The notes under the pieces are model-generated. The model was given only the letters and a program-made list of their open reading frames with translations, searched no databases and was not told the origin of the DNA. The translations under genes and the position numbers were made by a program. From the IMG/VR virus record IMGVR_UViG_3300009507_000024, positions 1 to 53,744 of that record: a stretch of 53,744 bases of DNA. One strand, 5' to 3'. Every line of letters begins with the position of its first letter. Position 1 is the stretch's first letter. Below, piece by piece: positions 12,033 to 28,957 of this stretch. The stretch is from a virus.

Positions 12033-12040
12033 TTATTTTT

Positions 12041-13094: not shown

Positions 13095-13907
13095 TAAACG
13101 CTTTACAGTTATTTGACCAACCATTCCTGAATGTACTTGGCATTGGTATCTATATGTGCCAGAAATACTTTCTTGAACTCTCCAGTATAATGTTCCTTGA
13201 TCTTTACCTTGAGCAAGTGCTCCTTCACTAACTGTGCCGTCTATATCTACATGTACTAATCCAACGTTATAAGCATTTCCTACTGCATTTTGGATTTCTA
13301 AAGGATGCCCAGATATTCCTGCAAGATTAAATGCAATTGTAGTTCCTGCTATTACTACTATACTTGGATTATTTCCAGCATAGTGACTAGGAATTGTATA
13401 AGCGATAGTGCCATCATTGTCAAATTGATACATTGCTATTGCCGGTTCATATATTTTATCTACAGTAAGTCCAGTTGGTATATCAGTAAGCTCAGTAAAG
13501 GCACTACTGCCTCCGGCACCTGTAGCATCTGCTGCATTTGCCCACTGGATTCCGTCCCATTTTAAAACTTGTCCTGTTTGTATTGCATCAATTGTAACAT
13601 CATCTAAGTCAGCAAGTGACCCAGCACCGCCTCCGCCTCCAGCGACTGATGTAAAGCTAAACGAACCTGCGCCGTTGGTTGTTAAAACTTGACCATCTGT
13701 CCCGTCTTCGATTCCTAGGTCTAATAAATCATTAGGAATTATACCAGTAGTATCTGTAAGATCACTTATGTCACTTGGTATTTCGCCTGCGCCTGTATCA
13801 AACGCCGCAGATATTATATTCCAAGTTGTGCCATTCCACTTCCAAGTATTGCCACTACTTGTATATACATCATCCGGTGCTGGATTTATTGGAAAATTTA
13901 GTGCCAT
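13083..13907 (-). CDS. virion fibre-type protein with C-terminal cupredoxin-like domain
   Basis: This protein has 274 residues. The N-terminal part (1-35) is a short PDDVYTSSGNTWKWNGTTWN chip typical of marine phage fibres. Residues 60-96 form a hinge, DLLDLGIEDGTDGQVLTTNG, ending in a Gly run; it is followed by Gly/Ser-rich repeats with WKWDGIQWAN-like motifs. The last 100 residues look like a cupredoxin. H201 lies in the segment SGHPLEIQ, and the terminal YRYQCQVHSGMVGQITV gives C256, H259 and M262. The C-x2-H-x2-M spacing is that of amicyanin-type blue copper sites. All four copper ligands are thus present. The gene has its own late promoter (13927-13934), and it pairs with the cupredoxin-carrying protein at 15976-17229. 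Confidence 0.75.
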   Translation of the reverse strand: MALNFPINPAPDDVYTSSGNTWKWNGTTWNIISAAFDTGAGEIPSDISDLTDTTGIIPNDLLDLGIEDGTDGQVLTTNGAGSFSFTSVAGGGGGAGSLADLDDVTIDAIQTGQVLKWDGIQWANAADATGAGGSSAFTELTDIPTGLTVDKIYEPAIAMYQFDNDGTIAYTIPSHYAGNNPSIVVIAGTTIAFNLAGISGHPLEIQNAVGNAYNVGLVHVDIDGTVSEGALAQGKDQGTLYWRVQESISGTYRYQCQVHSGMVGQITVKRLSVL

Positions 13908-13926
13908 ATTTGCTTACCTCTACTCA

Positions 13927-13934
13927 TATTTATT
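13927..13934 (-). promoter_or_regulatory. T4-type late promoter octamer (AATAAATA variant)
   Basis: AATAAATA on the minus strand, 20 bases before the 274-residue cupredoxin-tailed protein. It overlaps the last base of the protease gene. Confidence 0.65.
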
Positions 13935-15967
13935 CATTTATTAAATCTTAATGTTAAACCATTTGTAAGTGCTATAGATGCAGTAACAGCTTGTCTCGGT
14001 CCTGGTATAAATCTAGCATCAAAAGGCCCTGGATACAGTACCCTTGCTGGGCCGCCTTCTAAACTATTATAGTCTAACCAGTTTGCATCGTTAGCTGTTG
14101 TGCTTTCAACTCCGTAATAAAAATCTGTAGGATCTTGCACATCAAGAGATGCTATCCAATTTTGTACTTCTTGATAAGTCCAATCTCTATTATGTTCTAG
14201 TATTGTAGCTAAAAATCCTGCTACTATAGGACATGCTGCACTAGTGCCGCTAAATGCACAGTCGTATGCAGGAATTTCTAATGTGTCATAAGTATCTGCA
14301 CGTATTCCTTCGTTTAGATAATTTTTGTTAGCTGCTAGTGTTCCATCGGCAGCAGCATACACATCAATTCCATTTCCTCTGTCACTATAATTCACTTTAC
14401 GTTCTAAATTTCCAACTGCATAGTCATCATCTAATGCACCGATGTTTATAGTTTTGTATGTGACTTCTCCGGTCCCCCCGTCAATAGCTTTGCCACCTTG
14501 TTGTGGAAATCCACGTCTATTGGTTGTGCCGGTTACTGCAACACCAAATTCACTATAATTACTTTCTTCTAATGTATCGTCACTATTGGCACTAATATAA
14601 TTATCAAAATCTGGATGGCCCCAATTAACTTGCTTTTGATTACTATTTCCTGAAGCAACAACAAATAATACACCGCTATCAATAAGTTCGTCTAGTGCAG
14701 TTGTAAGTGAGTTAGTTTTCATTTCACTTTTCCAGCGCCCACCGTCACCTGTTACGCCCATATTAGAAATAAAATTTGGTTCATTTTCAATACCGTTGTA
14801 TGTAACTGCTAGATCGTTTCTAAAATGATACCATCCTGGGTTATCACCTTTGCTTGAACGATAACCCCAACTATTTGAACTTATTGTAGGATTTCTATTT
14901 CCAAATTGTGGATTAATAGGCTTATATAAATGAAAAGCTTTTTGTATATCGAAACCTGTTTCGATACCTGCGCCGTAAGAGCCGTATAAATCTAGCATCC
15001 ATTTATTAGCATTATACGCCCAGCCTTGTGTTCTTCCGTATGTTAAAGCACAACATGGTGTTCCGTGCTGTCCTTCACTATTTGGATTAGGCTGTAAAGT
15101 GTTATCACCTTGTGTATTATTTCTAGTATAAAGCGGCGATACAGATATAGAACCGATAGGAATAAACTGCGGACTTCTGTTTCCTGGATTTAGCCACCAT
15201 TGTCTTGCTTCTGCTTCAGTGGGCACAATAGTGCCATCAAATCGTGTAGTTAGCCGGGTGCCAGGATCTTCATTAAACCAGTCAGGGTCTATATAATACG
15301 GTCCGTCTAAATATACATCTAAAATATCACAAGTACCATTTCCTGGTAGAAGATTGCCGCCTACATAGTCTGCAGGTGATTCAATTGCAGATCCGTCTTG
15401 CTCTAGTCTTACATTATTTTGGAATTCTGGATGCCCTATCCAACAGCCTTCGTCGGCAACTATTACATCGATATTTTTTCCACTACCGTATTGAGAAATT
15501 GTAGCTTCAGGAACAGCATTATCTGCTAAACTATTATCTACCCATGGATCTAAAAACTGTTGGTGTCTATATAATTGATATCCAGATCTGTTAGCATCTG
15601 TCGAATCAGTATTAACCGGAAGTGTATTGCTAGTTTCAAACTCTCGATAATTTTTTATTGTGCCGGTATATCTTTGAACTAAGATAGGTCTAATACTTTG
15701 AAGTTCATCTTGTGGTGGCTTATATTCATCATACATAGAATAATCTATATTAATAAATTTAATTCTGCTGTCACTCTTTAGTAGATTAGCTTCAGTGTCT
15801 GTTAATAAAAAAGTTCCTCTAGTAGGACTGTGCAGTTTATCATCATAACATGTACATTCTCTATCCGGAATATAATCTTCACTAGTTTTAGCACATAACA
15901 AGTCATGTACTTCTACAAACTGTTCAGCTGTATGTGTTCCTAATTGATAGTATTTTTCTTCGGACAT
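13934..15967 (-). CDS. subtilisin-like serine protease (S8 family), likely virion-associated
   Basis: The 677-residue protein has all subtilase landmarks. Asp172 lies in DVIVADEGCWIGHPEF, His301 in QHGTPCCALTYG, the oxyanion Asn441 in LFVVASGNSNQ, and the nucleophile Ser576 in CAFSGTSAACPIVAGF. It has no signal peptide. The N-terminal 150 residues resemble a pro-region or virion-anchoring part rather than a secretion signal. The family hydrolyses peptide bonds in proteins. Located between two cupredoxin-bearing virion proteins and read from their late promoter (17252-17259, gap 8 bases), it is likely packaged in, or processes, the virion. A role in degrading host surface protein is an alternative. 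The active site is complete, so activity is expected. Confidence 0.88.
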   Translation of the reverse strand: MSEEKYYQLGTHTAEQFVEVHDLLCAKTSEDYIPDRECTCYDDKLHSPTRGTFLLTDTEANLLKSDSRIKFINIDYSMYDEYKPPQDELQSIRPILVQRYTGTIKNYREFETSNTLPVNTDSTDANRSGYQLYRHQQFLDPWVDNSLADNAVPEATISQYGSGKNIDVIVADEGCWIGHPEFQNNVRLEQDGSAIESPADYVGGNLLPGNGTCDILDVYLDGPYYIDPDWFNEDPGTRLTTRFDGTIVPTEAEARQWWLNPGNRSPQFIPIGSISVSPLYTRNNTQGDNTLQPNPNSEGQHGTPCCALTYGRTQGWAYNANKWMLDLYGSYGAGIETGFDIQKAFHLYKPINPQFGNRNPTISSNSWGYRSSKGDNPGWYHFRNDLAVTYNGIENEPNFISNMGVTGDGGRWKSEMKTNSLTTALDELIDSGVLFVVASGNSNQKQVNWGHPDFDNYISANSDDTLEESNYSEFGVAVTGTTNRRGFPQQGGKAIDGGTGEVTYKTINIGALDDDYAVGNLERKVNYSDRGNGIDVYAAADGTLAANKNYLNEGIRADTYDTLEIPAYDCAFSGTSAACPIVAGFLATILEHNRDWTYQEVQNWIASLDVQDPTDFYYGVESTTANDANWLDYNSLEGGPARVLYPGPFDARFIPGPRQAVTASIALTNGLTLRFNK

Positions 15968-15975
15968 TTTTTACC

Positions 15976-17229
15976 TTAAACTATTGGAGTTGTGTCTATA
16001 CTTGCCCATGCGCCATTTACATATGCTTCTAATCTATTATTAGTAGTGTTATAAATCATGTCTCCATTTTCAGCAATTAATGCGTCACGACCTGTGTCAT
16101 CGAAACTTGCTAATTTAAAAGGAGTAGTTGTAATACTTACTCGAGTAGTACCTGTCAATAATATTTCATTATCAGATACAAGTTCTGGAGTTCCAGAGCC
16201 CGATGTTATAATATCACCTGTTGCAAGAGTCAAATCGCCACTTAATAAAAGATTTGGAGTTATAGTAATGTCACTAGCATCTGATGTGTTTATAATGCTG
16301 TCTGTAAATGTAACATTTCCAGTGTCGCCGCCTCCGCCGCTTTGATTTATAAATTCAAATGTTCCATCGGCATTGGTTGAAAGTACTTGCCCGGCAACCC
16401 CATCAGTAATGCCTAAGTCTAATAAACTATCTGCAATCGGAATCGAAGGTTGTACCCATTGACCGCTATCAACATCTACCAAATATACATATAATGCACC
16501 GGAACTAGCATTAAACCAAACACTTCCGTTTTCCGGTTCTTCTGGCGGTGTTGCACTTGCTGTAACACTAGCACTTCCCGACCCAGTGCCAGGTAGGGCA
16601 GTTGTAATTTCAGCTCCCATTCCTGTATGATTTGAGCAATAATAATATAATGTTTCAGAAGTTGCAATATCAATATTAATTAATACTTTTCGCACTGTTG
16701 CTCTTTGAAATCCACTTTCATATTCAACTCGCGATACTTCAATATCATCTAGTATATACCTTACACCTAAGGTGTATTCTGTGCCCGATCCAGTATCTCC
16801 GTTAGGATCATCTGCACTAAAGAATAAAGGATGTTGATTGTTTGCGCCGCCTGTTTCGTTAGGATAAAACACATTAGTAGGATCAGATTGATCAAACACA
16901 TATGTGTAGCCCTTTACAAAATTTAAATCTGGCTTATACTCAGAATTTATATAAAATTTATTACCGGTATCGTCGCCTTGTGCTGCCCCAACAGTTACAG
17001 GATATGTTATAGCAGCAATGTTAGCAGAACTTGAATTTCTTACAAAACTACTGTCTGTAACAACTTCAAATCCGCCACGATTAATTGTTCTTCCGCTAAA
17101 AAGTCTTAGTGTGTTGGTTTCTTTTGAAAAGAATACTTCGCCACTAGACCCACTAGCTCTATCTAAGAATTCTTTAGCTCTTGGAATGATCCTTATGCGA
17201 TCAACAATAGGTGCGTTTGTACCAGCCAT
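15976..17229 (-). CDS. virion protein with N-terminal cupredoxin-like domain and fibre-type C-terminus
   Basis: The 417-residue protein has a beta-rich N-terminal part. Over residues about 95-215 it contains a cupredoxin-like domain: H133 in NNQHPLFFSAD and the end motif LYYYCSNHTGMGAEITT with C198, H201 and M204 (C-x2-H-x2-M). A hinge, SLLDLGITDGVAGQVLSTNA (about residue 268), matches the hinge of the 13083-13907 protein, but here it lies after the cupredoxin, not before. The C-terminus is a fibre chip, MIYNTTNNRLEAYVNGAWAS. It is probably a late virion component. The late promoter CATAAATA (17252-17259) stands 22 bases before the start and overlaps the divergent hldD promoter region. Confidence 0.75.
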   Translation of the reverse strand: MAGTNAPIVDRIRIIPRAKEFLDRASGSSGEVFFSKETNTLRLFSGRTINRGGFEVVTDSSFVRNSSSANIAAITYPVTVGAAQGDDTGNKFYINSEYKPDLNFVKGYTYVFDQSDPTNVFYPNETGGANNQHPLFFSADDPNGDTGSGTEYTLGVRYILDDIEVSRVEYESGFQRATVRKVLINIDIATSETLYYYCSNHTGMGAEITTALPGTGSGSASVTASATPPEEPENGSVWFNASSGALYVYLVDVDSGQWVQPSIPIADSLLDLGITDGVAGQVLSTNADGTFEFINQSGGGGDTGNVTFTDSIINTSDASDITITPNLLLSGDLTLATGDIITSGSGTPELVSDNEILLTGTTRVSITTTPFKLASFDDTGRDALIAENGDMIYNTTNNRLEAYVNGAWASIDTTPIV

Positions 17230-17251
17230 TACTTATCTCTCCATTATATAC

Positions 17252-17259
17252 TATTTATG
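17252..17259 (-). promoter_or_regulatory. T4-type late promoter octamer (CATAAATA variant)
   Basis: CATAAATA on the minus strand, 23 bases before the 417-residue virion protein gene. It lies next to the divergent hldD sigma70 promoter. Confidence 0.6.
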
Positions 17260-17260
17260 C

Positions 17261-17289
17261 TTGACTGTTGTGAAAAAATGTTATATAAT
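17261..17289 (+). promoter_or_regulatory. sigma70-type promoter of the hldD operon, leaderless arrangement
   Basis: TTGACT (17261-17266), a 17-base spacer and a perfect TATAAT (17284-17289) precede hldD. The ATG at 17295 is 5 bases after the -10 box, so the mRNA should start at the start codon. This is a host-type promoter, unlike the late promoters of the virion genes. Confidence 0.78.
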
Positions 17290-17294
17290 AAGAT

Positions 17295-18170
17295 ATGAAA
17301 TATTTGGTTACAGGCGCTGCTGGATTCATCGGCAGCAATTTAGTTAAAAAACTAAACACAGAAGGACACACAGACATTGTTTGTGTTGATGATCTTTCGC
17401 AAAATAATATTCAAAACATACAAGGGCTATCATATTCAGACTTTGTTTCAAAAGAAGACATAGAAAGAATATTTCATAAAGAATTTGATACTGTATTTCA
17501 CTTAGGCGCTGTTTCAAATACAAGAGCATCTAACTGGGATGAAATATATCAAAACAATATTGTTTTTACAAAGCAACTTTTTGATATGACACGTCATAGA
17601 AACTTTGTTTTTGCTAGTAGTGCTAGTGTATATGGAGACAGTAAGAATACACTAGAAACATCAACTAATGAAGCACCTAAAAATCTTTATGCTGCTAGTA
17701 AGTTGATCTGCGATAATTGGTTAAGACATCAAGGATGTCAGTATCAAAGTTGGAGATTTTTTAATGTGTATGGAAGTAGAGAAACAAGCAAGTTAGAATC
17801 AAACAGTAGTAGTCCATACACAACATTTAAGCAACAAGCATTAGAAAAGGGCGTAATAAAAATATTCGAAGGTAGTGATAAAATATTGCGTGACTTTATT
17901 AGTGTAGATGATGTAGTAGAAGTTATCTATCGTAAGCATTCTGACAATGATACATTTGTTAGTAATTTGGGCACAGGAAAACCTTCTAGTTTTAGTAACT
18001 GGGCAGGATTAATTGCTTCTAAATATAACGCTAAAATTGAACTCACTGAATTTCCTAATGATCTAAAGAAAGGCTATCAGTATTACACTTGTAGCAACAA
18101 TTCTACTTTAAATACCCTTATAGACTATAAGTTCAAAACACCTGAGGAATGGTTTAACAAATATGACTAA
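17295..18170 (+). CDS. hldD: NAD(P)-dependent epimerase, ADP-L-glycero-D-manno-heptose 6-epimerase-like
   Basis: The 291-residue extended short-chain dehydrogenase has the nucleotide motif TGAAGFIGSN (G7, G10, G13). Its catalytic segment FASSASVYGDS is followed by Y132-x3-K136. The middle RFFNVYGSRE and the downstream DKILRDFISVDDVV are typical of HldD (E. coli protein 310 aa). HldD converts ADP-D-glycero-beta-D-manno-heptose to the L-glycero form, the last step of ADP-heptose supply for LPS. The assignment is strengthened by the adjacent hldE, which overlaps by 8 bases. A sigma70-type promoter lies at once upstream, and no Shine-Dalgarno is visible. Another NDP-sugar epimerase cannot be fully excluded. 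Confidence 0.85.
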   Translation: MKYLVTGAAGFIGSNLVKKLNTEGHTDIVCVDDLSQNNIQNIQGLSYSDFVSKEDIERIFHKEFDTVFHLGAVSNTRASNWDEIYQNNIVFTKQLFDMTRHRNFVFASSASVYGDSKNTLETSTNEAPKNLYAASKLICDNWLRHQGCQYQSWRFFNVYGSRETSKLESNSSSPYTTFKQQALEKGVIKIFEGSDKILRDFISVDDVVEVIYRKHSDNDTFVSNLGTGKPSSFSNWAGLIASKYNAKIELTEFPNDLKKGYQYYTCSNNSTLNTLIDYKFKTPEEWFNKYD

Positions 18171-19305
18171 AGTTCTAGTAATAGGCGATATAATCATTGA
18201 CAAATATATTTACGGTACAAGTACTCGGATAAGTCCCGAAGCTCCTGTTCCTGTAATTACATATAAGCGTGAAGTTGAAACACTTGGCGGTGCAGGACTT
18301 GTATATGAGAATCTTAAAAGTTTAGGTGTTGATGTTGAACTAGTTGATATCTTCGACAAAGTAAGTGTTAAGACTAGAGTAATTTGTGACGGACATTATA
18401 TTACACGCATTGACGAAGATTATCACGCAGACAGCAAACAATTACTTGATTATATTCTATCACGAGATTTTAGTGATTACGAGTATGTTATCCTAAGTGA
18501 CTACAACAAAGGCACATTAGACGAATCTTTAAAAATTATCGAACATCTAAACACATTTGGTTGTAAGGTAATTGTAGATCCTAAAGAACACGCAAATCAT
18601 TATAAAGGTGCTTGGCTTGTAAAACCTAACTACAAAGAGTTTGGAGACTTTGGATTTACTAACTGGGGCGGAAATATCATCACTACTAATGCTGGCGATA
18701 ATGTTGTTGCACTTATAGACAGCAAAGTGTATGACATTCCTGTAGATAATCTAGAAGTAGCAGATGTTACAGGAGCAGGCGATTGTTTCTTGGCAGCATT
18801 TGTGTATGGATTAACTAGAGGATATGACTATAAAAAATCATTAGAAGTAGCAGTCAAAGGTTCTACACAAAGTGTAAAACACAGCGGCACTTATATTCTA
18901 AACACAAATGACCTAGAAGAACGTGTAATTTTTACTAACGGTGTATTTGATATATTACACAAGGGGCATTTTAAATTGCTTAACGAAGCTCGCAGTTTAG
19001 GCGATAAACTAATTGTAGGTATTAACAGCGATGCTAGTGTAAAAAGATTAAAAGGTGAAACACGCCCTATTAATAATCAAATGAAACGTATCAGTCAGCT
19101 AGAAATTTTACCATGGGTAGATCAAGTAGTTGTATTCAACGAAGATACACCTTACGAATTAATTAAAGAATTAAAGCCGCATGTAATTGTAAAAGGCGGC
19201 GACTACACAATAGAAACAGTTGTTGGGCACGATTTAGCTGATGTACATCTAGTACAAACTGTAGAAGGTTATTCAACAACAAGCATTATAGAGGCATCAC
19301 AATGA
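18163..19305 (+). CDS. hldE: bifunctional heptose 7-phosphate kinase / heptose 1-phosphate adenylyltransferase
   Basis: The 380-residue protein fuses both HldE activities. Residues 1-250 form a pfkB/ribokinase-type kinase. The substrate loop is LGGAGLVYENLKSLG (HldE usually reads GGAANVA), and the catalytic motif is DVTGAGD (D201-D207). Residues 254-380 are a nucleotidyltransferase with IFTNGVFDILHKGHFKLLNE (HKGH at 266-269), INSDASVKRLKGETRPI and VKGGDY. The reactions are heptose 7-phosphate to the 1,7-bisphosphate, and heptose 1-phosphate plus ATP to ADP-heptose. E. coli HldE has 477 aa, so the kinase lobe is trimmed by about 80 residues. GmhA (isomerase) and GmhB (phosphatase) are not in the window and may come from the host. 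Start and stop overlap both neighbours. Confidence 0.9.
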   Translation: MTKVLVIGDIIIDKYIYGTSTRISPEAPVPVITYKREVETLGGAGLVYENLKSLGVDVELVDIFDKVSVKTRVICDGHYITRIDEDYHADSKQLLDYILSRDFSDYEYVILSDYNKGTLDESLKIIEHLNTFGCKVIVDPKEHANHYKGAWLVKPNYKEFGDFGFTNWGGNIITTNAGDNVVALIDSKVYDIPVDNLEVADVTGAGDCFLAAFVYGLTRGYDYKKSLEVAVKGSTQSVKHSGTYILNTNDLEERVIFTNGVFDILHKGHFKLLNEARSLGDKLIVGINSDASVKRLKGETRPINNQMKRISQLEILPWVDQVVVFNEDTPYELIKELKPHVIVKGGDYTIETVVGHDLADVHLVQTVEGYSTTSIIEASQ

Positions 19306-19661
19306 CAAGACTAGAAGGCGAAGTAAAAAAAGGTTGGGGCAGTGAAACTATTTTCGCTACTAATGATCTATATTGCGGTAAGCTACTAAACTTTAACAAA
19401 GGCGCAAAATTTAGTATGCACCTCCATAAAGAAAAAGATGAAACTTGGTACGCACTTAGTGGAAAGTATTTAATTACTATTATTAATACTAAAGATGCTA
19501 GTCAAAAAGAATTTACATTTAATCAAGGCGAAACGTGGCGCAACGAACCAATGCTGCCTCATCAAATTATGTGTATTGAAGCAGGTACAATTATTGAAGT
19601 AAGCACACCGGACAGTGTAGAGGACAATTACAGAGTAGGAAAAGGTGACAGTCAAAGATGA
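19302..19661 (+). CDS. cupin-domain protein (sugar-nucleotide isomerase-like)
   Basis: The 119-residue single cupin domain has an intact first motif: FSMHLHKEKDETWYALSG gives HxHx4Ex6G. The second motif reads MLPHQIMC, with one His after Pro. This is the mannose-6-phosphate isomerase-like / NDP-sugar isomerase cupin pattern. Such proteins bind a divalent metal and often isomerise or epimerise sugar phosphates or NDP-sugars. Its position inside the hldD-hldE operon, with 4-base ATGA overlaps on both sides, argues for a role with heptose phosphates or their derivative. The exact reaction cannot be read from sequence. It is a better preserved relative of the cupin at 12477-12839. Confidence 0.8.
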   Translation: MTRLEGEVKKGWGSETIFATNDLYCGKLLNFNKGAKFSMHLHKEKDETWYALSGKYLITIINTKDASQKEFTFNQGETWRNEPMLPHQIMCIEAGTIIEVSTPDSVEDNYRVGKGDSQR

Positions 19662-20407
19662 GTAATTTATGGGTATTCGGTGACAGTTATACTGTACATA
19701 GTGATAAAAATAAAGATCTGTTATGGCCTTCTAAATTAGCAAAAAAGTTAGATGTTAAAAATTTTAATAATTGGAGTCAATATGGTGTATCAAACGAATA
19801 TATTTCATCCGGATTTAATTTACACTCCCGTAACATACAAAAAGATGACTACATTATTTTTATAGTTACCTGGAAAGGAAGAAATTGGTTCTTTGAAGAT
19901 CATCCCGAAATGTCTAACTTAAATATGGTAAATTCAGACGCTATAGTTAATAAAAAATACGGCCGAGAGGCTAAAAAAGCAGTAAAGTATTTTGAACAAT
20001 ATTTAGAAAGCGAACGGCTTGCAAATATAAAATTACAGTGGTATTACGGTTATCTTCAGTATTTAGAAACAATATTTCCAAACTTAATGATTATTCCTGC
20101 ATTTAATAACGAATTTCATTATGATAATAATTTCGAAGTAAAAGGGACTCTATTTGACATAGGATTTGACGAATACAAAACTGAAGAAATTGGAGAAGAA
20201 ATTTTTTTAAAAAAATGGAAAAGATTTGATATGAGAGCCGGACATATGTCAGTTGTAAATCATGATATTATGTGCAAAAAAATCTACGACACATTTACAA
20301 AAAATGTGCCGCTGGATTTAGATTCTGGATTTGAAAAAAACTTTATTAATTTACAAAACTATAATGAATTCGAAACAGTCGATAGAACTCATTTATTAGA
20401 TTTATAA
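19658..20407 (+). CDS. SGNH/GDSL-like hydrolase
   Basis: The 249-residue protein starts MSNLWVFGDSYTVHSD, giving the block-I nucleophile Ser10 in GDS. Near the C-terminus, DMRAGHMSVVNHDIM supplies the likely acid/His pair. The N-terminal segment lacks a signal peptide. SGNH enzymes are esterases, and many act as O-acetyl or other O-acyl transferases or esterases on sugars. As the last gene of the heptose operon (4-base overlap with the cupin gene), it may modify or strip acyl groups on the phage-made sugar or host polysaccharide. That is inference. Its 3' end overlaps the convergent gene by 19 bases. Confidence 0.7.
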   Translation: MSNLWVFGDSYTVHSDKNKDLLWPSKLAKKLDVKNFNNWSQYGVSNEYISSGFNLHSRNIQKDDYIIFIVTWKGRNWFFEDHPEMSNLNMVNSDAIVNKKYGREAKKAVKYFEQYLESERLANIKLQWYYGYLQYLETIFPNLMIIPAFNNEFHYDNNFEVKGTLFDIGFDEYKTEEIGEEIFLKKWKRFDMRAGHMSVVNHDIMCKKIYDTFTKNVPLDLDSGFEKNFINLQNYNEFETVDRTHLLDL

Positions 20408-21369
20408 GGATCGTAATCTGGATCATCATCCCATACTGGTTTAGATGCTAGACCGTCTCTTAAATCTTCCCAATTTGACGGCCTTCCTTTTTCCGGACGG
20501 AGATATAGATCTTCAGGTTTAAAATCAGGGTTGTCTCTAGGATCAGGCAATTCTGATTCAGCTTTTTCCCACGAAATATGATAGATTTGTTTTAACTTTA
20601 TTGTAACCCATTCTTTGTCATCATCATTCCATAATGTAATAAGTGATTCAGGATCATTTCTAGCCGACTGTGGTTCTTCTGGAGCCATATCTTGTACAGG
20701 GGGTTCTGGTACAACATCAGACTTTAATGTCATATTGACTTTGTACTTTACCTTATGATTTGCCATTTGAACACTTTCTCTAGCAGGAAATCTTTCAGGC
20801 ATGTCTTCTTCATCAACAAAATAATCTACTTCTGCATAATATTTTGAAAATTTATACAACAGCCAATGCTGATTGGCATACCATTTTTTTAAGTTCATGT
20901 TAAACATATGATGTATTCTCCGTATATTAACTGGTTCCCATTCTTCGTCATCAGCATCCCATACTGTAATTGTAGCTTCAGAACTATCAGGATCATTAGA
21001 TGGTGCGTTGCCGCCGCATGGAACTATGTCAGGACGTAAAGTCATAACATAAGACTTTACAGTGTCGGCTGGATGATTTACACGTAGATCACTAGGAACT
21101 TGTCCTCCGCCTTTTCTTTGAGGGATGTGTCCTCCAGTTTCTATGTAGCATATATTGTTTTCTAGAAGGTATAAAAAATGCGGTTTCATCATTTTTACTT
21201 CTTCATCGGTAAGATATTCTTCTGCCGATTCTGGATACTTTGCTGCCCACTCAGCATCGCTCATTACTTTTAAATCTTCGTCCATTTGTTTTGAGATAGG
21301 ATCTTGTTCTAACTCGTTTAGTCTTCTTGTGTATAGATCAACTTCTTCTTCTTCATTACTATATTTCAT
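20389..21369 (-). CDS. acidic protein with two tandem WYL_2/Sm-like (DUF2693-type) domains
   Basis: The 326-residue acidic protein contains two similar domains. The first (about 105-154) has YVMTLRPDIVPC and then ITVWDADDEEWEPVNIRRIH. The second (about 207-265) has VNMTLKSDVVPE and ITLWNDDDKEWVTIKLKQIY. This resembles the small SH3/Sm-like domain found singly in many phages. The N-terminal 100 residues and the Asp/Pro-rich C-terminus are low complexity. No catalytic motif is seen. It starts 8 bases after the second carbamoyltransferase and is the last gene of that run. A scaffold or protein-interaction role is only a guess. Confidence 0.65.
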   Translation of the reverse strand: MKYSNEEEEVDLYTRRLNELEQDPISKQMDEDLKVMSDAEWAAKYPESAEEYLTDEEVKMMKPHFLYLLENNICYIETGGHIPQRKGGGQVPSDLRVNHPADTVKSYVMTLRPDIVPCGGNAPSNDPDSSEATITVWDADDEEWEPVNIRRIHHMFNMNLKKWYANQHWLLYKFSKYYAEVDYFVDEEDMPERFPARESVQMANHKVKYKVNMTLKSDVVPEPPVQDMAPEEPQSARNDPESLITLWNDDDKEWVTIKLKQIYHISWEKAESELPDPRDNPDFKPEDLYLRPEKGRPSNWEDLRDGLASKPVWDDDPDYDPYKSNK

Positions 21370-21377
21370 TTGTTTTC

Positions 21378-23003
21378 CTACAATAATTTATTTTCATCTA
21401 CAAAATATAAGTGATTTAACTCACTGTTATTTAATACTTCTAATGCTTGTAATTTTGTTTGCACCAACGGCTGTCCTGCTAGATTAAAACTAGTATTAAG
21501 TAACATCGGACAGCCTGTTAATTTATAAAATTCTTGTAATAAATCATATAAAAATCCATTATTTACTGTTTGTATTCTGCATGTTGAATCTACATGTACT
21601 ATACCAGGAACCATATTTAAAGTATGAGGTTTAGCATTGAAATTTATAGTCATGTATTCTGATTTCTGATATCCCAATGTATCAAAATATTCTTCAAAAT
21701 ATTCTTCTAATATTACGCCTGCAAATGGCCTATACCATTCTCTATTTTTAATTCTATTAACTATTTCTTTAGTGTCAGCATTTCTAGGATCAAACAATAT
21801 CGATCTATGTCCTAAAGCCCTTGGACCTGCTTCTGGACTACCGTTAAAAACAGCTAAAGATTTTTTATTAATTAGTATATCACATAGCTCTTTTATATTT
21901 GTTGTACTTCCCTTATTTACTACAGTGTCATTGTAGTAATGATAAAAATTGTTATCAACACCTTCTACCCAAGTATTAGTGTTTTCATATTGTTTTAATA
22001 TAGTAGCACCTAAACTTATTCCTGTATCGTCAGCATTAGGTTCAAAATAGAAATTTACATCAGGTAAATTTTTAATATAGAAATTATTAGCTACTACATT
22101 TAACCCGTATCCTCCTACTATACATACATTTTTTACACCAGTCTCATTAACATATTTTTTTATCAACGATAACATTTCATTTTGAGTTTCTACTTGTACT
22201 TGTTTAGCTTTATCAGCATAGTACATGTAGTTATTTTCATTAACATCATCAGTGATGTAATTTATACTATCGGAAAAAGTTACTCCTAACTCATTTCCAA
22301 TATAGCCAGTAAATTTTTCACTAATAGGCATATTATCAACAAATAAGTTTTCAAAATTATCTTTTGTGCTATACGAAGATAATCCCATAGTTTTACCATT
22401 TTCTAAAGGATGTTGTCCTATTAGTGTAGTTGCAGCTTCATATACTTTAACAACCGAATACTCACTATCACAAACTACTTTGCAGTCATAATATTCCTGT
22501 ATATTATTCTTAATAATATGTTTTTGATTTGTTGGACCTGTTATAAAAAAGTTTTTTTGTAAATGATTAATACTATCTTTATTAACTCTATACACGCTTT
22601 CACATTCTCTTGCAACATCGTGACCATCTATATAAAAAGACGAGCCGTTTCTATCAACAACAAACACTAATGCTTCATCAAAGTTACTATTTGAATATGC
22701 TAAAGCCATATGACAATCATGATGTTTTAAATCAGAATAATTTTCCATTCTTTTATCAAAAATTTTATTAATATACATTGATAAAATACCTTCAACATCA
22801 TGTTGAGAATTTGAAGGAGTGCAATAAAGGACATGATCTATGTGTTTTGTGTTAAGAGACCGAAACAACTCTAAAGATTTAAAAGGTACTTGATCTCTTT
22901 TTACACCAGTAAGGCGTTCTTCCTTACAAAAGAACTCTATCTTTCCGTTGTCAATACAACATACTGACGAATCGTGTGCAACAGAAAATGCAAGTATTCT
23001 CAT
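21378..23003 (-). CDS. NodU/TobZ-family carbamoyltransferase (copy 2)
   Basis: The 541-residue protein has an N-terminal ASKHA-type ATP/carbamoyl-adenylate domain with the metal motif LKHHDCHMALAY (H94, H95, H98) and FVVDRNGS. The C-terminal domain has GPRALGHRSILFDPR, NREWYRPFAGVILEEYF, DSTCRIQTV and GCPMLLNTSFNLAGQPLV. Family members transfer a carbamoyl group from carbamoyl phosphate, via carbamoyl-AMP, to hydroxyl groups of sugars or antibiotics. It begins at the base after the stop of the other carbamoyltransferase (TAA then ATG), so the two are translationally coupled. The two differ clearly in length and sequence, so they may use different positions or acceptors. All key motifs are present. 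Confidence 0.9.
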   Translation of the reverse strand: MRILAFSVAHDSSVCCIDNGKIEFFCKEERLTGVKRDQVPFKSLELFRSLNTKHIDHVLYCTPSNSQHDVEGILSMYINKIFDKRMENYSDLKHHDCHMALAYSNSNFDEALVFVVDRNGSSFYIDGHDVARECESVYRVNKDSINHLQKNFFITGPTNQKHIIKNNIQEYYDCKVVCDSEYSVVKVYEAATTLIGQHPLENGKTMGLSSYSTKDNFENLFVDNMPISEKFTGYIGNELGVTFSDSINYITDDVNENNYMYYADKAKQVQVETQNEMLSLIKKYVNETGVKNVCIVGGYGLNVVANNFYIKNLPDVNFYFEPNADDTGISLGATILKQYENTNTWVEGVDNNFYHYYNDTVVNKGSTTNIKELCDILINKKSLAVFNGSPEAGPRALGHRSILFDPRNADTKEIVNRIKNREWYRPFAGVILEEYFEEYFDTLGYQKSEYMTINFNAKPHTLNMVPGIVHVDSTCRIQTVNNGFLYDLLQEFYKLTGCPMLLNTSFNLAGQPLVQTKLQALEVLNNSELNHLYFVDENKLL

Positions 23004-24863
23004 TTACTTTTCCTGATTTTTTATATAAATTAGTTTTTTATATTCAGGAAGATACAAGTATTCAATATCACTCTTATCTAGTGTATGAAAGGCGTCTTCA
23101 AGTGTTTCCACTAAAGGATCTCCTCCGAGATTAAAACTAGTATTAAAAATAATAGGGCATCCTGTTTTTTCATAAAATGCCTTTATCAACTTATAATAGT
23201 TTGGATTTTCATCTTCTGTAACAGTTTGAATCCGGCAAGTTCCATCAACATGAATGATACTAGGAATTTTTTCTTGTATTCCAGGTTGGCAATTTACAGC
23301 ATACATCATATGAGGAGTCTCGTCTATACCTCTTAGATCGAACCATTCATGTACATGTTCTTTAAGAATTGATCCTGCAAAAGGCCTAAAGTATTCTCTC
23401 TTCTTAACTGTATTAACAAAATCTTTCCCATTTGGATCTGTTGGATCATACATAATACTTCTATTACCTAAAGCTCTCGGACCATTTTCACATCTTCCTT
23501 GGAATATAGTTACAATATTCTTGTCAGTTATTAAATCTACAATTTCCGAATCTGTAATGTCATTAGTAACTGTTGCGTTATATTTCGAACCTAAGATATC
23601 GAAATCAGAGTCTAAATAATTATACTCTGGTCCCAAGTATAATGTAGAATCTAGATTTTCAACATTTCCAGTACTTAAATAATACGCCCAATATGCAGCG
23701 CCTAATGCTGTGCCCGCATCATTTGATATAGGTTCGATATACAGTTCTATGCCTTCATCTTTTAGTTCTTCTAAATAATGATAGTTAGCAACACAATTTA
23801 ATCCATAGCCACCAGTAATTACAACTTTTTTATTTCCAGTCATTTCTACTGATTTTCTAATCATATCTAAAACAGCATCTTGTGATTGTGTTTGACAAGC
23901 ATATGCAATATCTTTTGATATTGAATAATCGTAGGTTTTCTTTCCTTCTGCATACTCTTCATGGTTTATATTTTTATCTATATAAAGCTCTTCGTTTAGA
24001 GATGCTCCATTTGGATATTTTGGAATAACCCAATTGTTATTAACTAACGGCCAATGGGTAAAGTCTTTATCATAAAAGCTAGGAATATCTTTGTTTTCTT
24101 TACCGTAGGGAAATAATCCCATGGTCTTTCCTGCTTCAATACTTTGCCAGCCACAATACAATGTAGAAGCTTCATATGCTTTTACAGTTCCGGCTCGATT
24201 TGTAAGTAACGAAGTAAATTTTGCATTTGGTTCAAATTCTAACATATGTCCGAGAACAGTTGCATCTACAGTATCTAATATTCCTGTAATAGATTCTCGT
24301 GTTCCAATATGCTTGAATACAGTATGTATAACACCATCTGACTTAATATCACCTCTATATACAGACTCAACTTCGTAACCCACAAATTGTTCACCGCCCA
24401 TTGTAAGAGGTATAAATGTTCCTGCACCATCTACTACTAAAATTGTAGCATCTTCCCAGCCACTCCTTAATAGTCCGCACCATGCATGTAATTTATGATG
24501 CTCCATTGCAAAATCAAATACTTGACTATGATTTTGCGGAACACGACTATTTTCTGGTTCGTGTTTAATTAGCCCTAACTTTCGCAAAATTCCCATATAT
24601 GTGTTATCACCACACCATTCGAGATTGTTTGTAGGACCGTTTCTTCCGTCTAATGTTTGTGTATGAGCAAAGGCTACATAGTCTAGTTTATCAGTATAAT
24701 CTAAAATACGTTGTATCGCAGCAAAAGGTGCGCCGTCGTACTTGTATCTAGTAAAACGTTCTTCTTCTATGCTAAAAACTATTTTGCCATTTTTTAATAA
24801 ACAGACGCCGCCGTTGTGACCTCTAGTTATTCCAGCAATCCAAATATCTTTATTTTTTTCCAT
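23004..24863 (-). CDS. NodU/TobZ-family carbamoyltransferase (copy 1)
   Basis: The 619-residue protein starts with the family N-terminus ITRGHNGGVCLLKNGKIVFS and EEERFTRYKYDG. Metal motif EHHKLHAWCG has H122, H123 and H126, followed by LVVDGAGTF. The C-terminal motifs are GPRALGNRSIMYDPT, KREYFRPFAGSILKEH, DGTCRIQTV and GCPIIFNTSFNLGGDPLVET. The reaction is O-carbamoylation of a sugar-like acceptor using carbamoyl phosphate and ATP. The gene overlaps the GT9-like gene by 14 bases and is followed without gap by the second copy, forming a glycosyltransferase-carbamoyltransferase-carbamoyltransferase unit. It is about 80 residues longer than copy 2, mainly in the N-terminal half. Confidence 0.92.
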   Translation of the reverse strand: MEKNKDIWIAGITRGHNGGVCLLKNGKIVFSIEEERFTRYKYDGAPFAAIQRILDYTDKLDYVAFAHTQTLDGRNGPTNNLEWCGDNTYMGILRKLGLIKHEPENSRVPQNHSQVFDFAMEHHKLHAWCGLLRSGWEDATILVVDGAGTFIPLTMGGEQFVGYEVESVYRGDIKSDGVIHTVFKHIGTRESITGILDTVDATVLGHMLEFEPNAKFTSLLTNRAGTVKAYEASTLYCGWQSIEAGKTMGLFPYGKENKDIPSFYDKDFTHWPLVNNNWVIPKYPNGASLNEELYIDKNINHEEYAEGKKTYDYSISKDIAYACQTQSQDAVLDMIRKSVEMTGNKKVVITGGYGLNCVANYHYLEELKDEGIELYIEPISNDAGTALGAAYWAYYLSTGNVENLDSTLYLGPEYNYLDSDFDILGSKYNATVTNDITDSEIVDLITDKNIVTIFQGRCENGPRALGNRSIMYDPTDPNGKDFVNTVKKREYFRPFAGSILKEHVHEWFDLRGIDETPHMMYAVNCQPGIQEKIPSIIHVDGTCRIQTVTEDENPNYYKLIKAFYEKTGCPIIFNTSFNLGGDPLVETLEDAFHTLDKSDIEYLYLPEYKKLIYIKNQEK

Positions 24864-25863
24864 TTTTTGTTCCTAGTCCAGAAAGATTTGGTAATGATTT
24901 TACATTTGATTGTGTTTTTACTGTTGTCGGTGTTCTTTTTTCTATTGATTTATAAATTTTACTATACACATCTTTTCTATCGCCGATTTTCATACATCTA
25001 TCATTATTACGTTCAATTTCTTCATCCATTGCAATTCGTATAGGTGAATAACGTTTATTGCCTTCGTCTATGTCAATTATATCTACGTTACTACTATTAA
25101 CATACGATGTATTAATAGCAAATGTAGATCCTAAAACAACAGTAGTAGGTGTATCTAATGAATGAGCAAGATGTTGCCCTACACTATCACAACCTAAAAA
25201 ATGATCTGAATTTTTTATAATACCGGACCACTCTCTAAGTCCTATATTTTGAGGATGACTTACAGGTTCTTTGCATCCTAGATCGCTAAAGGGAACACTA
25301 AACTCGCTCATTAGCATAATAGCATAACCTTTTTCTTGTAGCTTAGAAGCTATTTCGGCAGCTTCCATAACATCAAAACTTCTGCCGCCTGAATCATAAA
25401 CAAACCCATTAACATTGTTACTACTTCTGCCAAATGGCTGAAATACAATTACTTTGTCTTTTTTAGTTTTTTCTCTAACTTCTTTAACAGCAAGAAACCC
25501 TTTTACATCTTCGTCAGTGTTTAACTCAAGTGTAGATTTTGGTAATTCTCGTATGCCTTTATTATTAATTTGTATATCAAATGCTTGAGCAAGGCTGCAC
25601 TCTTGATTATAATATTCCCATACCCTGTATGGTTCTGTTGATACACAATTTCTTTGTTTTATTTTTTCTTCGAAAAGCCCTTTGTGATTTACATCATAGC
25701 AGCGAGAATGTAACACGGAATGATTTTTGAACATATCCATTCCGCCTTCGCAAATAATGATAAAATCGTCATCTGGATTTTCTTTAGCAAAAAGTTCGAG
25801 CGCTGGAATAGAGCTTATTACTCTTCCAGCGCCTCCGTTGATAAAAAATGCTGAGCTTCTCAT
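24850..25863 (-). CDS. GT9-like (ADP-heptose:LPS heptosyltransferase-like) glycosyltransferase
   Basis: The 337-residue protein has a two-lobe GT-B pattern. The N-terminus FFINGGAGRVISSIPALELF corresponds to the GxGD...PAL segment of heptosyltransferases. The C-terminal lobe has IGLREWSGIIKNSDHFLGCD, SVGQHLAHSLDTPTTVVLGS and the VFQPFGRSSNN strand-loop. GT9 enzymes move L-glycero-D-manno-heptose from ADP-heptose to an acceptor. In E. coli WaaC the base Asp13 follows the Gly of this N-terminal loop; here that place is Arg14, so activity or mechanism may differ. The Thr/Lys-rich C-terminal tail (about residues 310-337) looks disordered. The upstream gap (25864-25928) holds no late promoter. With hldD/hldE nearby, heptose is the likely donor sugar. 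Confidence 0.75.
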   Translation of the reverse strand: MRSSAFFINGGAGRVISSIPALELFAKENPDDDFIIICEGGMDMFKNHSVLHSRCYDVNHKGLFEEKIKQRNCVSTEPYRVWEYYNQECSLAQAFDIQINNKGIRELPKSTLELNTDEDVKGFLAVKEVREKTKKDKVIVFQPFGRSSNNVNGFVYDSGGRSFDVMEAAEIASKLQEKGYAIMLMSEFSVPFSDLGCKEPVSHPQNIGLREWSGIIKNSDHFLGCDSVGQHLAHSLDTPTTVVLGSTFAINTSYVNSSNVDIIDIDEGNKRYSPIRIAMDEEIERNNDRCMKIGDRKDVYSKIYKSIEKRTPTTVKTQSNVKSLPNLSGLGTKNGKK

Positions 25864-25928
25864 GATTTTCCTTTATAACAATTATAACAATACTTATATT
25901 GTTGGTTTAAAAGGAAATTTAAAAGCGG

Positions 25929-26627
25929 TTAGCTTACGTCACGTTCTCTAAATGAACCACCTAATTCTATATCTACAATATTAGGAATAGTAAGCTTATG
26001 CCTCGGAACAGTTGTAAGCAAATCGTCTTTAATCCAATTACATATTTCCGAATGTCTTTTCCATAACTTAGTTTCTGCAACAGTATTTGCATTGTCGCCG
26101 TGATCCCAAGATCTTTGAGCTGCTCGTGTTAATGCATGTATTAACTCTTCGTCAGTGTTATTGTCTTGCTCTCTAAAGTTATAACTTATTACATTTTCAG
26201 GATTTATTCTAATACTATCGGCATCGATTATCTGCTGAGGGTCAATAGGATTGTCTTCTTCATGCTTTAATTCAAAAGTTGAATCGTCGCTAAATGTATA
26301 AGTTGCAATAGTTTCAGTTATAGGATTGATATTCTCTTCTACTGTTTCTCCTGCAAGGACTTGCATAATAACAATATGATCATCATTGCTTGCATTAAGT
26401 ACCATGTATCTATCAGTAGTTTCCGGATCATCGTCGATAGGACCTTCTTCAATATCCTCCCAATCATCATCTTCAAGAGGCAAATGCTCTATACTGACAC
26501 GTTCATCGTGTGATATTACAACTAATAACTTTTGCGGACCAGTATATGTACAAGTTACAGTTTCTTCTGCACTTGTTACATCTAACAGTTCCGAAGGTTT
26601 TTTATATGTATAAGTTTTTGTTATCAT
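25929..26627 (-). CDS. acidic protein downstream of the Cys/Gly-rich gene, unknown
   Basis: The 232-residue protein is very acidic, with the run EDDDWEDIEEGPIDDDPETT at about residue 72. The N-terminal half is beta-rich (residues 1-70). The C-terminal half, about 150-232, is helical and contains ALTRAAQRSWDHGDNANTVA and ends in FRERDVS. I do not recognise a family. It lies 10 bases after the Cys/Gly-rich gene and 65 bases before the glycosyltransferase gene, all co-directional. A chaperone or assembly partner of the Cys/Gly-rich protein is a guess from adjacency. Confidence 0.6.
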   Translation of the reverse strand: MITKTYTYKKPSELLDVTSAEETVTCTYTGPQKLLVVISHDERVSIEHLPLEDDDWEDIEEGPIDDDPETTDRYMVLNASNDDHIVIMQVLAGETVEENINPITETIATYTFSDDSTFELKHEEDNPIDPQQIIDADSIRINPENVISYNFREQDNNTDEELIHALTRAAQRSWDHGDNANTVAETKLWKRHSEICNWIKDDLLTTVPRHKLTIPNIVDIELGGSFRERDVS

Positions 26628-26637
26628 TTTTTATCCT

Positions 26638-27570
26638 TTATGTGTCGATCGAGGTGATAATAAGACCAGCTGATCCACGTCCGCCATAGCAGCAAGGGCC
26701 GCCACAGGCACCACCGTTTGAGCCGCCTCCGCCTGGAACAAAACCAACACATCCATGTCTTGCATATGAACTTGTACCCCAGCATTTGCCATGGCCGCCG
26801 CCTGCGTAAGATGCACCGCCTACACCGTGACAACAGTTTTGTCTTGAACCGCAGCTCCAGCCGTTGGTGCCTCCACCTACACTATTTTCAACTAAGTATG
26901 CACAATGACCGATTCCATTCCATGGACCGCATGTACAAGGTGTTAGACAGAATTTATCTAATATAGCAACACCACTACCACCGCCGCTACCTCCTATTGT
27001 TCCACCTGGATCGAACTGACATACACTGTCGCTGTGATTACAGTTTTGACTAATACCACTTGAGCCACCACTGGTTTGCCCTTCTTCAATACTTGCTGTA
27101 CTAATCCAACAATCGTTACAGGTGTTATCTGTAATAACATACCAACACTCTGTGCCGCCTGGAAGGCAGCCACCGCCTTGTATTGAACAGTGTCCTAGAC
27201 CACATATGCACATTCTACTAAACTGACCGCAGTGTCCGCAGCAACCATCTGTGTCGCCGCAACAGTAACAGTAACATGCACAGAAACATAGTTGTCTGTT
27301 TGAGCTACATGCTAAGTAACTGATTCTTACACCTGAATAACCTGATGCTGCACCTCCATCTACGCCGCCTTGGCAGCAAAATGCTGGGGCACCACCGCCA
27401 CCTTGACCCCACATTTCATATGCGTAATAGTCAGTGCTGGTTGGAATACACTGGCAGCAGCTTGAACAACAACTAAATGTCCATTTTTGGTATGTTGAGC
27501 CGTGTGTAATTCTTTCAGGTTCTGCGGATGATCCAAAGGATCTCTCGAAAAAATCTTTAATTGATGCCAT
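26638..27570 (-). CDS. cysteine- and glycine-rich probable adhesin/fibre-tip protein
   Basis: The 310-residue protein has 38 cysteines (12%) by direct count, with dense clusters such as FSCCSSCCQC (about residue 33) and LCFCACYCYCC (about residue 93), and many GGGG or GGxGG runs. The N-terminus, MASIKDFFERSFGSS, is not a signal peptide. Glycine-run motifs resemble those of T-even receptor-binding gp38-type adhesins, which fold as polyglycine-II sandwiches. The cysteines might form disulphides after lysis, or bind metal. It sits at the start of the fibre island after the 338-residue fibre. The function is inferred from composition and position only. Confidence 0.65.
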   Translation of the reverse strand: MASIKDFFERSFGSSAEPERITHGSTYQKWTFSCCSSCCQCIPTSTDYYAYEMWGQGGGGAPAFCCQGGVDGGAASGYSGVRISYLACSSNRQLCFCACYCYCCGDTDGCCGHCGQFSRMCICGLGHCSIQGGGCLPGGTECWYVITDNTCNDCWISTASIEEGQTSGGSSGISQNCNHSDSVCQFDPGGTIGGSGGGSGVAILDKFCLTPCTCGPWNGIGHCAYLVENSVGGGTNGWSCGSRQNCCHGVGGASYAGGGHGKCWGTSSYARHGCVGFVPGGGGSNGGACGGPCCYGGRGSAGLIITSIDT

Positions 27571-27589
27571 GTCTGTTTCCTATTTCCTA

Positions 27590-28606
27590 TTATAGTATGT
27601 TAGTTATCCACCAGCCGGTGCCAGTTATATATACTAATTCTAAATTAATTTCATTTACATCCAGAGTTAAATTATCTGCTACACCCATGATGTTTTGACC
27701 ATTTCTAGAAACTGTACAAGCATTAGTTCCAAAGTTTCTAGCATAATCAACTATTCTAATTCTTGTTCCGGCTGCTGGGGAAGACGGTAGTGTCATTGTA
27801 ATTGCAGCAGATCCTGTATTTACAAAGTATCCATATTGCGGGGTCATTGTAGTATTAGTTGTAACTAGTGTCCAATCTAGACCGCCTACTAAATCTGCAT
27901 AATTTTTATTTGCAGCATCGGTATCACTCGATACAGTATCAACACCTTGAATTCTACCAGTTCCGCTTAATACAAGACTACCGTTTCCGATTGTTACTGT
28001 GCCGCCGGTTCTTATTTGCTTTGCTACTCCAATACCACCTGGTACAACTAAAGCACCATTTCCGGTGCCAGAAGTGTCAGTTGTTGCAGTTAGTATTACT
28101 TCACTATTAGTATTTTGTCCTAATCTGATGTTTCCGCCACCGTTTGGATAAATTCTAATATCTTGTCCAGAACCATCTAAAATAGTAATTGTACCACTGT
28201 TTGATCCGGCATTTGTGCTTAATGTTAAATCGCCCGTACCCCAAGTAGTAAGTGTAGTGTTTGCGTTTTGGTCACCTATTCTAGTTGTATCTGCGTTTAA
28301 ACGTACATCGCCTGTACCGCTAGGTGTTATAGTAATACTTTGGTTGTTACCATCTGGAATAGTAATTGTACCACTATTTGAACCTGCGTTAGTATGAATG
28401 GTAAGATCGCCTGTACCCCAAGTAGTAAGTATAGCGTTTCCGTTTTGGTCACCTATTCGTAATGTATCCGTACCTAAATTCACATTGCCTGTACCATTAG
28501 GCATGATCATTATATCTTCGTTTGGTATGATAGAGTTAAAGGTATTGTCAATAATTTGTAATCGACTAATTTCACCAATTCTACCAGGGTTAAACTTTCT
28601 TGCCAT
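27590..28606 (-). CDS. tail-fibre-type protein with two 59-residue repeats
   Basis: The 338-residue protein has a beta-rich N-terminus, then two near-identical 59-residue repeats (residues 50-108 and 109-167). Each opens RIGDQN and contains LTTWGTGDLT, NAGSNSGTITI and a GTGD or GGGN turn. The middle DTVSSDTDAANKNYADL is the tail-fibre motif of the Phage_fiber type. The C-terminal roughly 100 residues form a globular end with TMTLPSSPAAGTRIRIVDYA. It likely forms a slender trimeric fibre. The gene follows the 107-residue protein by 12 bases and belongs to the minus-strand fibre run. Confidence 0.75.
   Translation of the reverse strand: MARKFNPGRIGEISRLQIIDNTFNSIIPNEDIMIMPNGTGNVNLGTDTLRIGDQNGNAILTTWGTGDLTIHTNAGSNSGTITIPDGNNQSITITPSGTGDVRLNADTTRIGDQNANTTLTTWGTGDLTLSTNAGSNSGTITILDGSGQDIRIYPNGGGNIRLGQNTNSEVILTATTDTSGTGNGALVVPGGIGVAKQIRTGGTVTIGNGSLVLSGTGRIQGVDTVSSDTDAANKNYADLVGGLDWTLVTTNTTMTPQYGYFVNTGSAAITMTLPSSPAAGTRIRIVDYARNFGTNACTVSRNGQNIMGVADNLTLDVNEINLELVYITGTGWWITNIL
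28106..28459 (-). repeat. two tandem 177-bp DNA repeats in the 338-residue fibre gene
   Basis: Units at 28283-28459 and 28106-28282 encode 59 residues each (RIGDQN to the Thr/Asn-rich end). Stretches are nearly identical at DNA level as well as protein level, for example the segment around CGCCTGTACCCCAAGTAGTA versus CGCCCGTACCCCAAGTAGTA, which suggests a recent in-frame duplication. Confidence 0.85.
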
Positions 28607-28618
28607 TTTTCTTCCTTT

Positions 28619-28942
28619 TTACGCCGCTGTAGATGTTTCTATACCATATACTACAGCATTTGTATCTGTACTATTAGCATAGCAAACAATCCTTTGTCCT
28701 GCTGATAATACAATACCTGTTCTTTCTAAAACACCATTTGCTAGTAATTCAACATCGTATTCAATGTATTCAGCAGTTGAAGGGCTACCTGAGGTAGCCA
28801 CTGCAACTCTAACATCTCTAGATGTAGTCGCTCTATTCACTAAATTGACTGTTACTACTGCGAATGTGTCAGCTGGGCATGTATATACAGTTGTATTTGA
28901 TGCTGCACCTAATGTGCTTGCCCCTAGTCTTCCATTTGCCAT
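28619..28942 (-). CDS. small beta-rich virion protein
   Basis: The 107-residue protein starts MANGRLGASTLGAASNTTVY and consists almost wholly of beta-strand-like stretches with Thr, Val and Ala. Similar 105-125-residue beta proteins occur at 42242-42571, 50888-51265 and 51265-51636 in the same fibre region, so a family of small decoration or fibre-hub proteins seems likely. No enzyme motif is visible. A late-promoter-like octamer lies 87 bases upstream inside the giant fibre gene. Confidence 0.65.
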   Translation of the reverse strand: MANGRLGASTLGAASNTTVYTCPADTFAVVTVNLVNRATTSRDVRVAVATSGSPSTAEYIEYDVELLANGVLERTGIVLSAGQRIVCYANSTDTNAVVYGIETSTAA

Positions 28943-28957
28943 TCTATATTACTCCTA

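Follow-up and report, generated by a model that had tools for sequence, protein, structure and literature searches.

A candidate fibre-decoration module in the fibre-neck island of a large T4-like phage

Phage-encoded islands of glycan-modifying genes are already known. In cyanophages, T4-GC 304, 305, 307 and 308 were reported to co-occur in P-SSM2, S-SM2 and S-SSM7 and to be probably functionally linked (Sullivan et al. 2010; PMC3037559). They were filed as "LPS" (lipopolysaccharide) genes and the question of stuffer DNA was raised, while heptose, a glycosyltransferase, carbamoylation and a target were left unnamed. In pelagimyophages, an island of this type has been given the name host recognition cluster (PMC7029224). 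Two enzymes described elsewhere are also relevant here: TibC, which heptosylates Ser of adhesins (PMC4358343), and a proven 5-hydroxymethylcytosine (5hmC) carbamoyltransferase, which was obtained from a phage-like contig by metaGPA (PMC8670742). The present analysis concerns a 53.7 kb linear fragment of a T4-like phage (IMG/VR record IMGVR_UViG_3300009507_000024; all 53,744 nucleotides are referred to as the window), in which a variable island encodes heptose enzymes, a GT9-fold glycosyltransferase (GT) and two carbamoyltransferases (CT1 and CT2) next to tail fibre genes. The island was read as a fibre-decoration module, with a probability of about one half.

T4-GC 304, 305, 307 and 308 correspond to HldC, HldA, cupin and HldD, respectively. 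The order fibre, GT, carbamoyltransferase (CT), HldC/HldA, small HAD, cupin, HldD, neck could be found annotated in P-SSM2, S-CAM1, S-CAM3, S-SSM7 and Sf-FS3, with insertions in some of them. A preliminary description of this DNA had regarded the set as undescribed as a system; this view had to be abandoned, since the set is annotated in these five cyanophages and four of its members were linked in the earlier report (PMC3037559). The literature search, which covered open-licence PMC articles only, returned no paper joining GT, CT, heptose and fibre genes, and a PMC search returned none joining 7-O-carbamoyl heptose, carbamoyltransferase and Pseudomonas aeruginosa. What is new is the way the module is built: GT, CT and the fibre-tip genes belong to a single module, and the heptose genes make up a second block, its usual supplier.

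The glycosyltransferase and its linkage to fibre-tip genes

The GT sequence scored 18.5 bits against Pfam GT9, below the cut-off of 22, and a sequence search of the PDB gave nothing useful, so that only the fold search was informative. The AlphaFold model (predicted local distance difference test, pLDDT, 92.8) showed a GT-B fold, and 30 of its top 31 matches were GT9 or heptosyltransferase structures (3tov, TibC, WaaF, WaaC). The N-terminal GGxGR and DSxGQH motifs were invariant in an alignment of 63 sequences, and a D-S/T-x-G-x-H motif was found alongside the GT-B fold closest to GT9 structures. The enzyme is thus GT9-like by fold, as had been proposed in the preliminary description, despite its sub-threshold Pfam score. 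Membership of the BAHT (TibC) family was considered and rejected: both defining features of that family, an N-terminal beta-barrel (residues 1-97) and a four-Cys iron finger (PMC4358343), are absent, and the model starts at the GT-B lobe. Across phages GT is approximately 50% identical. Among 84,980 cellular genomes there were seven strong matches, all of them on contigs of metagenome-assembled genomes with phage neighbours.

Related loci were collected by IMG/VR scans in which the best 80 matches were kept; the counts therefore hold for close relatives rather than for the family at large, and they include related phages, which are not independent of one another. A CT gene was present in 79 of the 80 loci fetched with GT, always on the GT strand and no more than about 2 kb downstream. 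Directly upstream of GT on the same strand, the c6 family was found in 59/80 loci, and c0 or c6 occurred within 6 kb in 74/80. The reverse test, using c6 as bait, recovered GT in 72 of 78 loci (52 of the 53 with full flanks) and CT in 70 of 78, and among annotated isolates GT was present in 11/11 records with a c6 query match. The c6 family is similar to the tail assembly chaperone PF16778 and c0 to the glycine-rich domain protein PF21722; the label "fibre-tip" for both is a reading from position and composition. The cassette is therefore associated with fibre genes, as had been claimed, and much more strongly than a single genome could reveal; the linkage holds from either side.

Carbamoyltransferases, heptose enzymes and island layout

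Both CT1 and CT2 contained a Carbam_trans_N domain and a full Carbam_trans_C domain. Their HxxxH and Asp residues, which we take to be equivalent to the metal ligands of TobZ, were invariant across CT1, CT2 and cyanophage relatives; both proteins can accordingly be accepted as the NodU-type carbamoyltransferases they had been called. Phylogenetic analysis placed CT1 within the GT-linked clade. CT2 clustered with cyanophage CTs located near psbA/psbD-type and 2-oxoglutarate (2OG) oxygenase genes, apart from the tandem second CTs of other cassettes, and by this placement and these neighbours it looks like a separate recruitment. Carbamoyltransferases of this superfamily might instead act on modified cytosine of the phage DNA, as does the 5hmC enzyme identified by metaGPA. 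Common superfamily, the phage-like source of the proven enzyme (PMC8670742) and the separate lineage of CT2 speak for such a role, but it is very improbable: each protein is only 23% identical to the proven enzyme and distant from it on the tree, the window proteins scanned included neither a thymidylate synthase nor a hydroxymethylase, and CT1 is coupled to fibre genes and a glycosyltransferase. For CT1, a function as 5hmC DNA carbamoyltransferase was rejected on the low identity and the distant branch.

The heptose enzymes named in the preliminary description were recovered as best matches of both proteins. HldD scored 222 bits against TIGR02197 (cut-off 274.6) and matched best E. coli HldD in the PDB (1eq2, E=2e-40), with YxxxK and the second Lys aligned. 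In HldE both rfaE domains were detected with the family motifs kept, and the best PDB matches were the putative cytidylyltransferase 5x9q and the heptose-7-P kinase 4e84. The kinase half is approximately 35 residues shorter than that of E. coli HldE, as it is in phage relatives, and retains GAGD. Owing to sequence divergence, the scores of HldE and HldD fall under the equivalog cut-offs. Small HAD or GmhB-like genes are present in relatives. One such family, T4-GC 306 (P-SSM2 L005:15113-15457; also L006, L007 and L009), is annotated as phosphoheptose isomerase; it is a protein of about 110 amino acids with a DIDGTIC motif and weak, sub-threshold HAD matches. It resembles a small HAD-type protein, which makes the public GmhA annotation doubtful.

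The SGNH-fold protein had no Pfam match. It contained a GDS block together with the conserved Gly, Asn and His. Its model was of moderate confidence (pLDDT 73), and SGNH/GDSL enzymes made up nearly all of the best PDB matches. Profile comparison linked the SGNH protein of the window to a second family, c16 (45 proteins), whose genes are located between GT and CT in L012, L021, L040 and other loci, in some of them as two copies. The module may thus regularly include acyl chemistry.

All genes of the cassette are intact open frames (Table 1), and both operons were found as previously outlined. On the plus strand, HldD, HldE, cupin and SGNH genes overlap with their neighbours. On the minus strand, GT and CT1 overlap and CT1 abuts CT2, and the operon also includes the acidic gene, which had gone unmentioned and follows CT2 after a gap of 8 nt. 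An IMG/VR contig from another dataset (L179) had the same gene order and a 100% identical CT2, so that misassembly is an unlikely origin of this arrangement. The island is flanked by neck-side genes (gp13, 8626-9384; gp15, 10614-12032) and by fibre and baseplate wedge genes (28958-50348); being variable, accompanied by fibres and placed between baseplate and neck genes, it corresponds to a host recognition cluster. The tail sheath stabiliser of the window was closest to those of the jumbo phages Sinorhizobium phage Phosso, Pseudomonas phage PA5oct and Agrobacterium phage Atu_ph07 (32-34% identity).

Table 1. Coordinates of the cassette, the adjoining fibre-side genes and the predicted promoter in the window
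Feature	Position	Strand	Basis or remark
Sigma70-like promoter of the Hld operon, TTGACT-17-TATAAT	17261..17289	+	Sole 11/12 match in 12000-29500
HldD-like ADP-heptose 6-epimerase	17295..18170	+	Profile and PDB matches
HldE-like fused heptose-7-P kinase (shortened) and heptose-1-P adenylyltransferase	18163..19305	+	
Cupin, phrog_7851, HxH...E...H	19302..19661	+	Accompanies Hld genes in relatives
SGNH-fold protein	19658..20407	+	Motif residues and model
Acidic protein, no assigned function	20389..21369	-	Occurs in two close relatives (L011, L013)
NodU/TobZ-type carbamoyltransferase CT2, probable separate recruitment	21378..23003	-	
NodU/TobZ-type carbamoyltransferase CT1, partner of GT	23004..24863	-	
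GT9-fold glycosyltransferase GT, phrog_8954	24850..25863	-	Fold and motifs
c6-family counterpart, tail assembly chaperone-like	25929..26627	-	Directly upstream of GT; profile comparison 97.7%
Gly/Cys/Ser-rich protein, c0-family counterpart, candidate acceptor	26638..27570	-	Profile comparison 99%
Tail-protein-like fibre companion	27590..28606	-	
Small fibre companion, PSSM2_302 homologue	28619..28942	-	
Tail fibre, 2433 amino acids	28958..36259	-	Carbohydrate-binding CBM_5_12 matches

Other genes were also noted in this region. A subtilase-domain protein (phrog_9158, Peptidase_S8) is encoded at 13934-15967 amid tail and fibre genes. A second cupin of the same family, at 12477-12839 directly after a NUDIX gene, has lost the metal-binding His residues. 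In the close relatives L091, L099 and L100, a ferredoxin-dependent bilin reductase lies in the island between gp15/nudix and hldD, and the same stretch holds a gene that, judged by eye, is 5-aminolevulinate (ALA) synthase-like.

Proposed decoration pathway and competing readings

Under the proposed mechanism, HldE and HldD would convert host sedoheptulose-7-P derivatives into ADP-heptose, and GT, acting in the cytosol, would transfer the heptose to Ser/Thr of the fibre-tip proteins, in a manner resembling that of TibC on adhesins. CT1, and perhaps CT2, would then O-carbamoylate the heptose, and the SGNH protein may acylate or deacylate the sugar. Tips decorated in this way might alter receptor binding or protect the fibre, and phages without the Hld block would use host ADP-heptose. 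A virion target is favoured because c6 and GT are linked in both directions, GT is conserved at about 50% and rare in cellular genomes, a Ser/Gly/Cys-rich candidate acceptor adjoins it, and TibC offers a precedent.

Several observations weigh against this reading. HldD was present on only 11 of 24 GT-bearing contigs, and contigs as long as 165 and 223 kb were without it. Hld genes with no match to this GT occur in P-TIM68, S-SM2, S-T4 and Sf-CH5/8. As a gene hotspot, the island contains unrelated metabolic genes as well. Neither a GmhA isomerase nor a GmhB phosphatase was found in the 53.7 kb fragment, so that the precursors must be supplied by the host or by genes in the part of the genome that the fragment lacks. 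Promoter predictions are divided, as detailed below, and the acceptor, donor and product are inferred.

The first of these points shows that the heptose and transfer operons are separable, and Hld genes lay within 10 kb in 29 of the 80 GT-fetched loci. The genes could accordingly be independent passengers of a gene hotspot, the Hld products feeding another glycan and GT-CT using another sugar. P-TIM68 (L010) probably provides such a case: its Hld genes reside in a large sugar island with other glycosyltransferases. Islands of relatives moreover house tryptophan halogenase, denV, bilin reductase and 2OG oxygenases. We nevertheless consider this explanation improbable. Whole-contig search detected GT on 14 of 20 HldD contigs; five of the six without it were 35 kb or shorter and the sixth carries HldD at the contig end, which is reached 2.6 kb after the fetched HldD locus starts to run out. 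GT and CT are found on nearly all long HldD contigs. On the GT tree, presence of the Hld block was the common state and required about 3 changes, against 8.6 with shuffled labels, the Hld-lacking label being given to nine GT genes only, all from contigs of approximately 50 kb or more. Furthermore, the fold of GT is that of enzymes using ADP-heptose. The block itself is coherent: HldE or HldA accompanied HldD in 77 of 80 HldD-fetched loci, cupin in 76 and gp15 in 73. Among HldD loci without GT, c0/c6 was seen in 0/59; no weight was given to this result, since the length of a fibre gene can push c0/c6 past the 10 kb flank.

The main rival to fibre decoration is modification of the host, in which the cassette would heptosylate and carbamoylate host LPS or another envelope glycan and thereby mask receptors and exclude other phages. 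This is the published reading of such islands in pelagimyophages (PMC7029224), and LPS core enzymes are among the nearest solved relatives of GT. Promoter predictions, which are consensus matches and not transcripts, also bear on it. In the hldD promoter only 5 nt separate the end of the -10 box from the ATG, so that the transcript would be leaderless if this promoter is used. In relatives, a strong sigma70-like site preceded leading Hld genes in 12/21 cases for HldD and 10/15 for HldE (expected about 1), and the late motif in 3 and 1, respectively. The T4-type late motif (G/A/C)ATAAATA was located 24-41 nt upstream of about ten window genes, mostly structural; allowing one mismatch, the whole window held 210 sites versus 191 by chance, so the motif is informative only when exact and ahead of gene starts. 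Among genes of relatives with intergenic room it preceded p302 in 13/13, c6 in 22/26, gp18 in 19/23 and gp13 in 16/20 (expected 1-2), with almost no sigma70-like sites. Promoters of GT were mixed: of 82 upstream regions with corrected starts, 28 contained the late motif and 23 a sigma70-like site, one of these having both, and 32 contained neither; the window GT has only a TATAAGTA approximately 28 nt upstream. The claimed co-direction of the minus-strand operon with the fibre genes is true of the window and breaks down in the relatives L012, L021 and L040, where the operon is inverted. The promoter split weakens the argument from co-direction and leaves room for a host-surface target.

Even so, we regard host modification as rather unlikely. 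The GT-CT pair is tied to fibre-tip genes in both directions, and GT remains about 50% identical across diverse phages whereas host glycans vary, a pattern more readily explained by an acceptor that the phage encodes than by variable host LPS. The LPS of marine Synechococcus is not known to contain heptose, which may cut either way.

Fibre decoration therefore remains our preferred reading for the window. A broader version is more tentative: that a widespread group of T4-like and jumbo phages carries a dedicated O-heptosylation/O-carbamoylation system for its own receptor-binding tips, with a phage-specific GT9-fold clade, acceptor genes and a carbamoyltransferase in one module. If true, adhesin heptosylation would have a viral counterpart, and phage adhesins would bear a carbamoylated sugar of their own, with consequences for host range, for the stability of virions at sea and for exclusion at the cell surface. 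The reciprocal linkage of GT/CT with fibre-tip genes singles out a specific candidate acceptor and allows the question to be addressed with the cultured phages P-SSM2, S-CAM1 and S-SSM7.

Comparison with known systems

The cyanophage islands of T4-GC 302-308 (P-SSM2, S-SSM7, S-CAM1, S-CAM3 and Sf-FS3) share with the window GT, CT, HldC/HldA or HldE, cupin and HldD in the same place between fibre and neck. The window phage differs by its fused HldE, two CTs of different clades, an SGNH gene, an acidic protein and the absence of a HAD gene from the window, as well as by a tail sheath stabiliser closest to jumbo phages. With the NodU/TobZ O-carbamoyltransferases the phage CTs have both Pfam domains and the HxxxH and Asp residues in common, but the window phage carries two divergent copies. 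The metaGPA 5hmC carbamoyltransferase shares superfamily and phage origin and differs in its neighbours as well as by its 23% identity.

Among glycosyltransferases, WaaC and WaaF have the GT9 fold in common with the phage GT, and ADP-L,D-heptose would be the natural donor; the phage enzyme is 9-12% identical to them, is restricted to phages and adjoins fibre and carbamoyltransferase genes. TibC and AAH of the BAHT family likewise share the GT9 fold, and a heptose donor with an adhesin-like acceptor is the analogy proposed here. TibC uses ADP-D,D-heptose, whereas the window phage also encodes the epimerase HldD.

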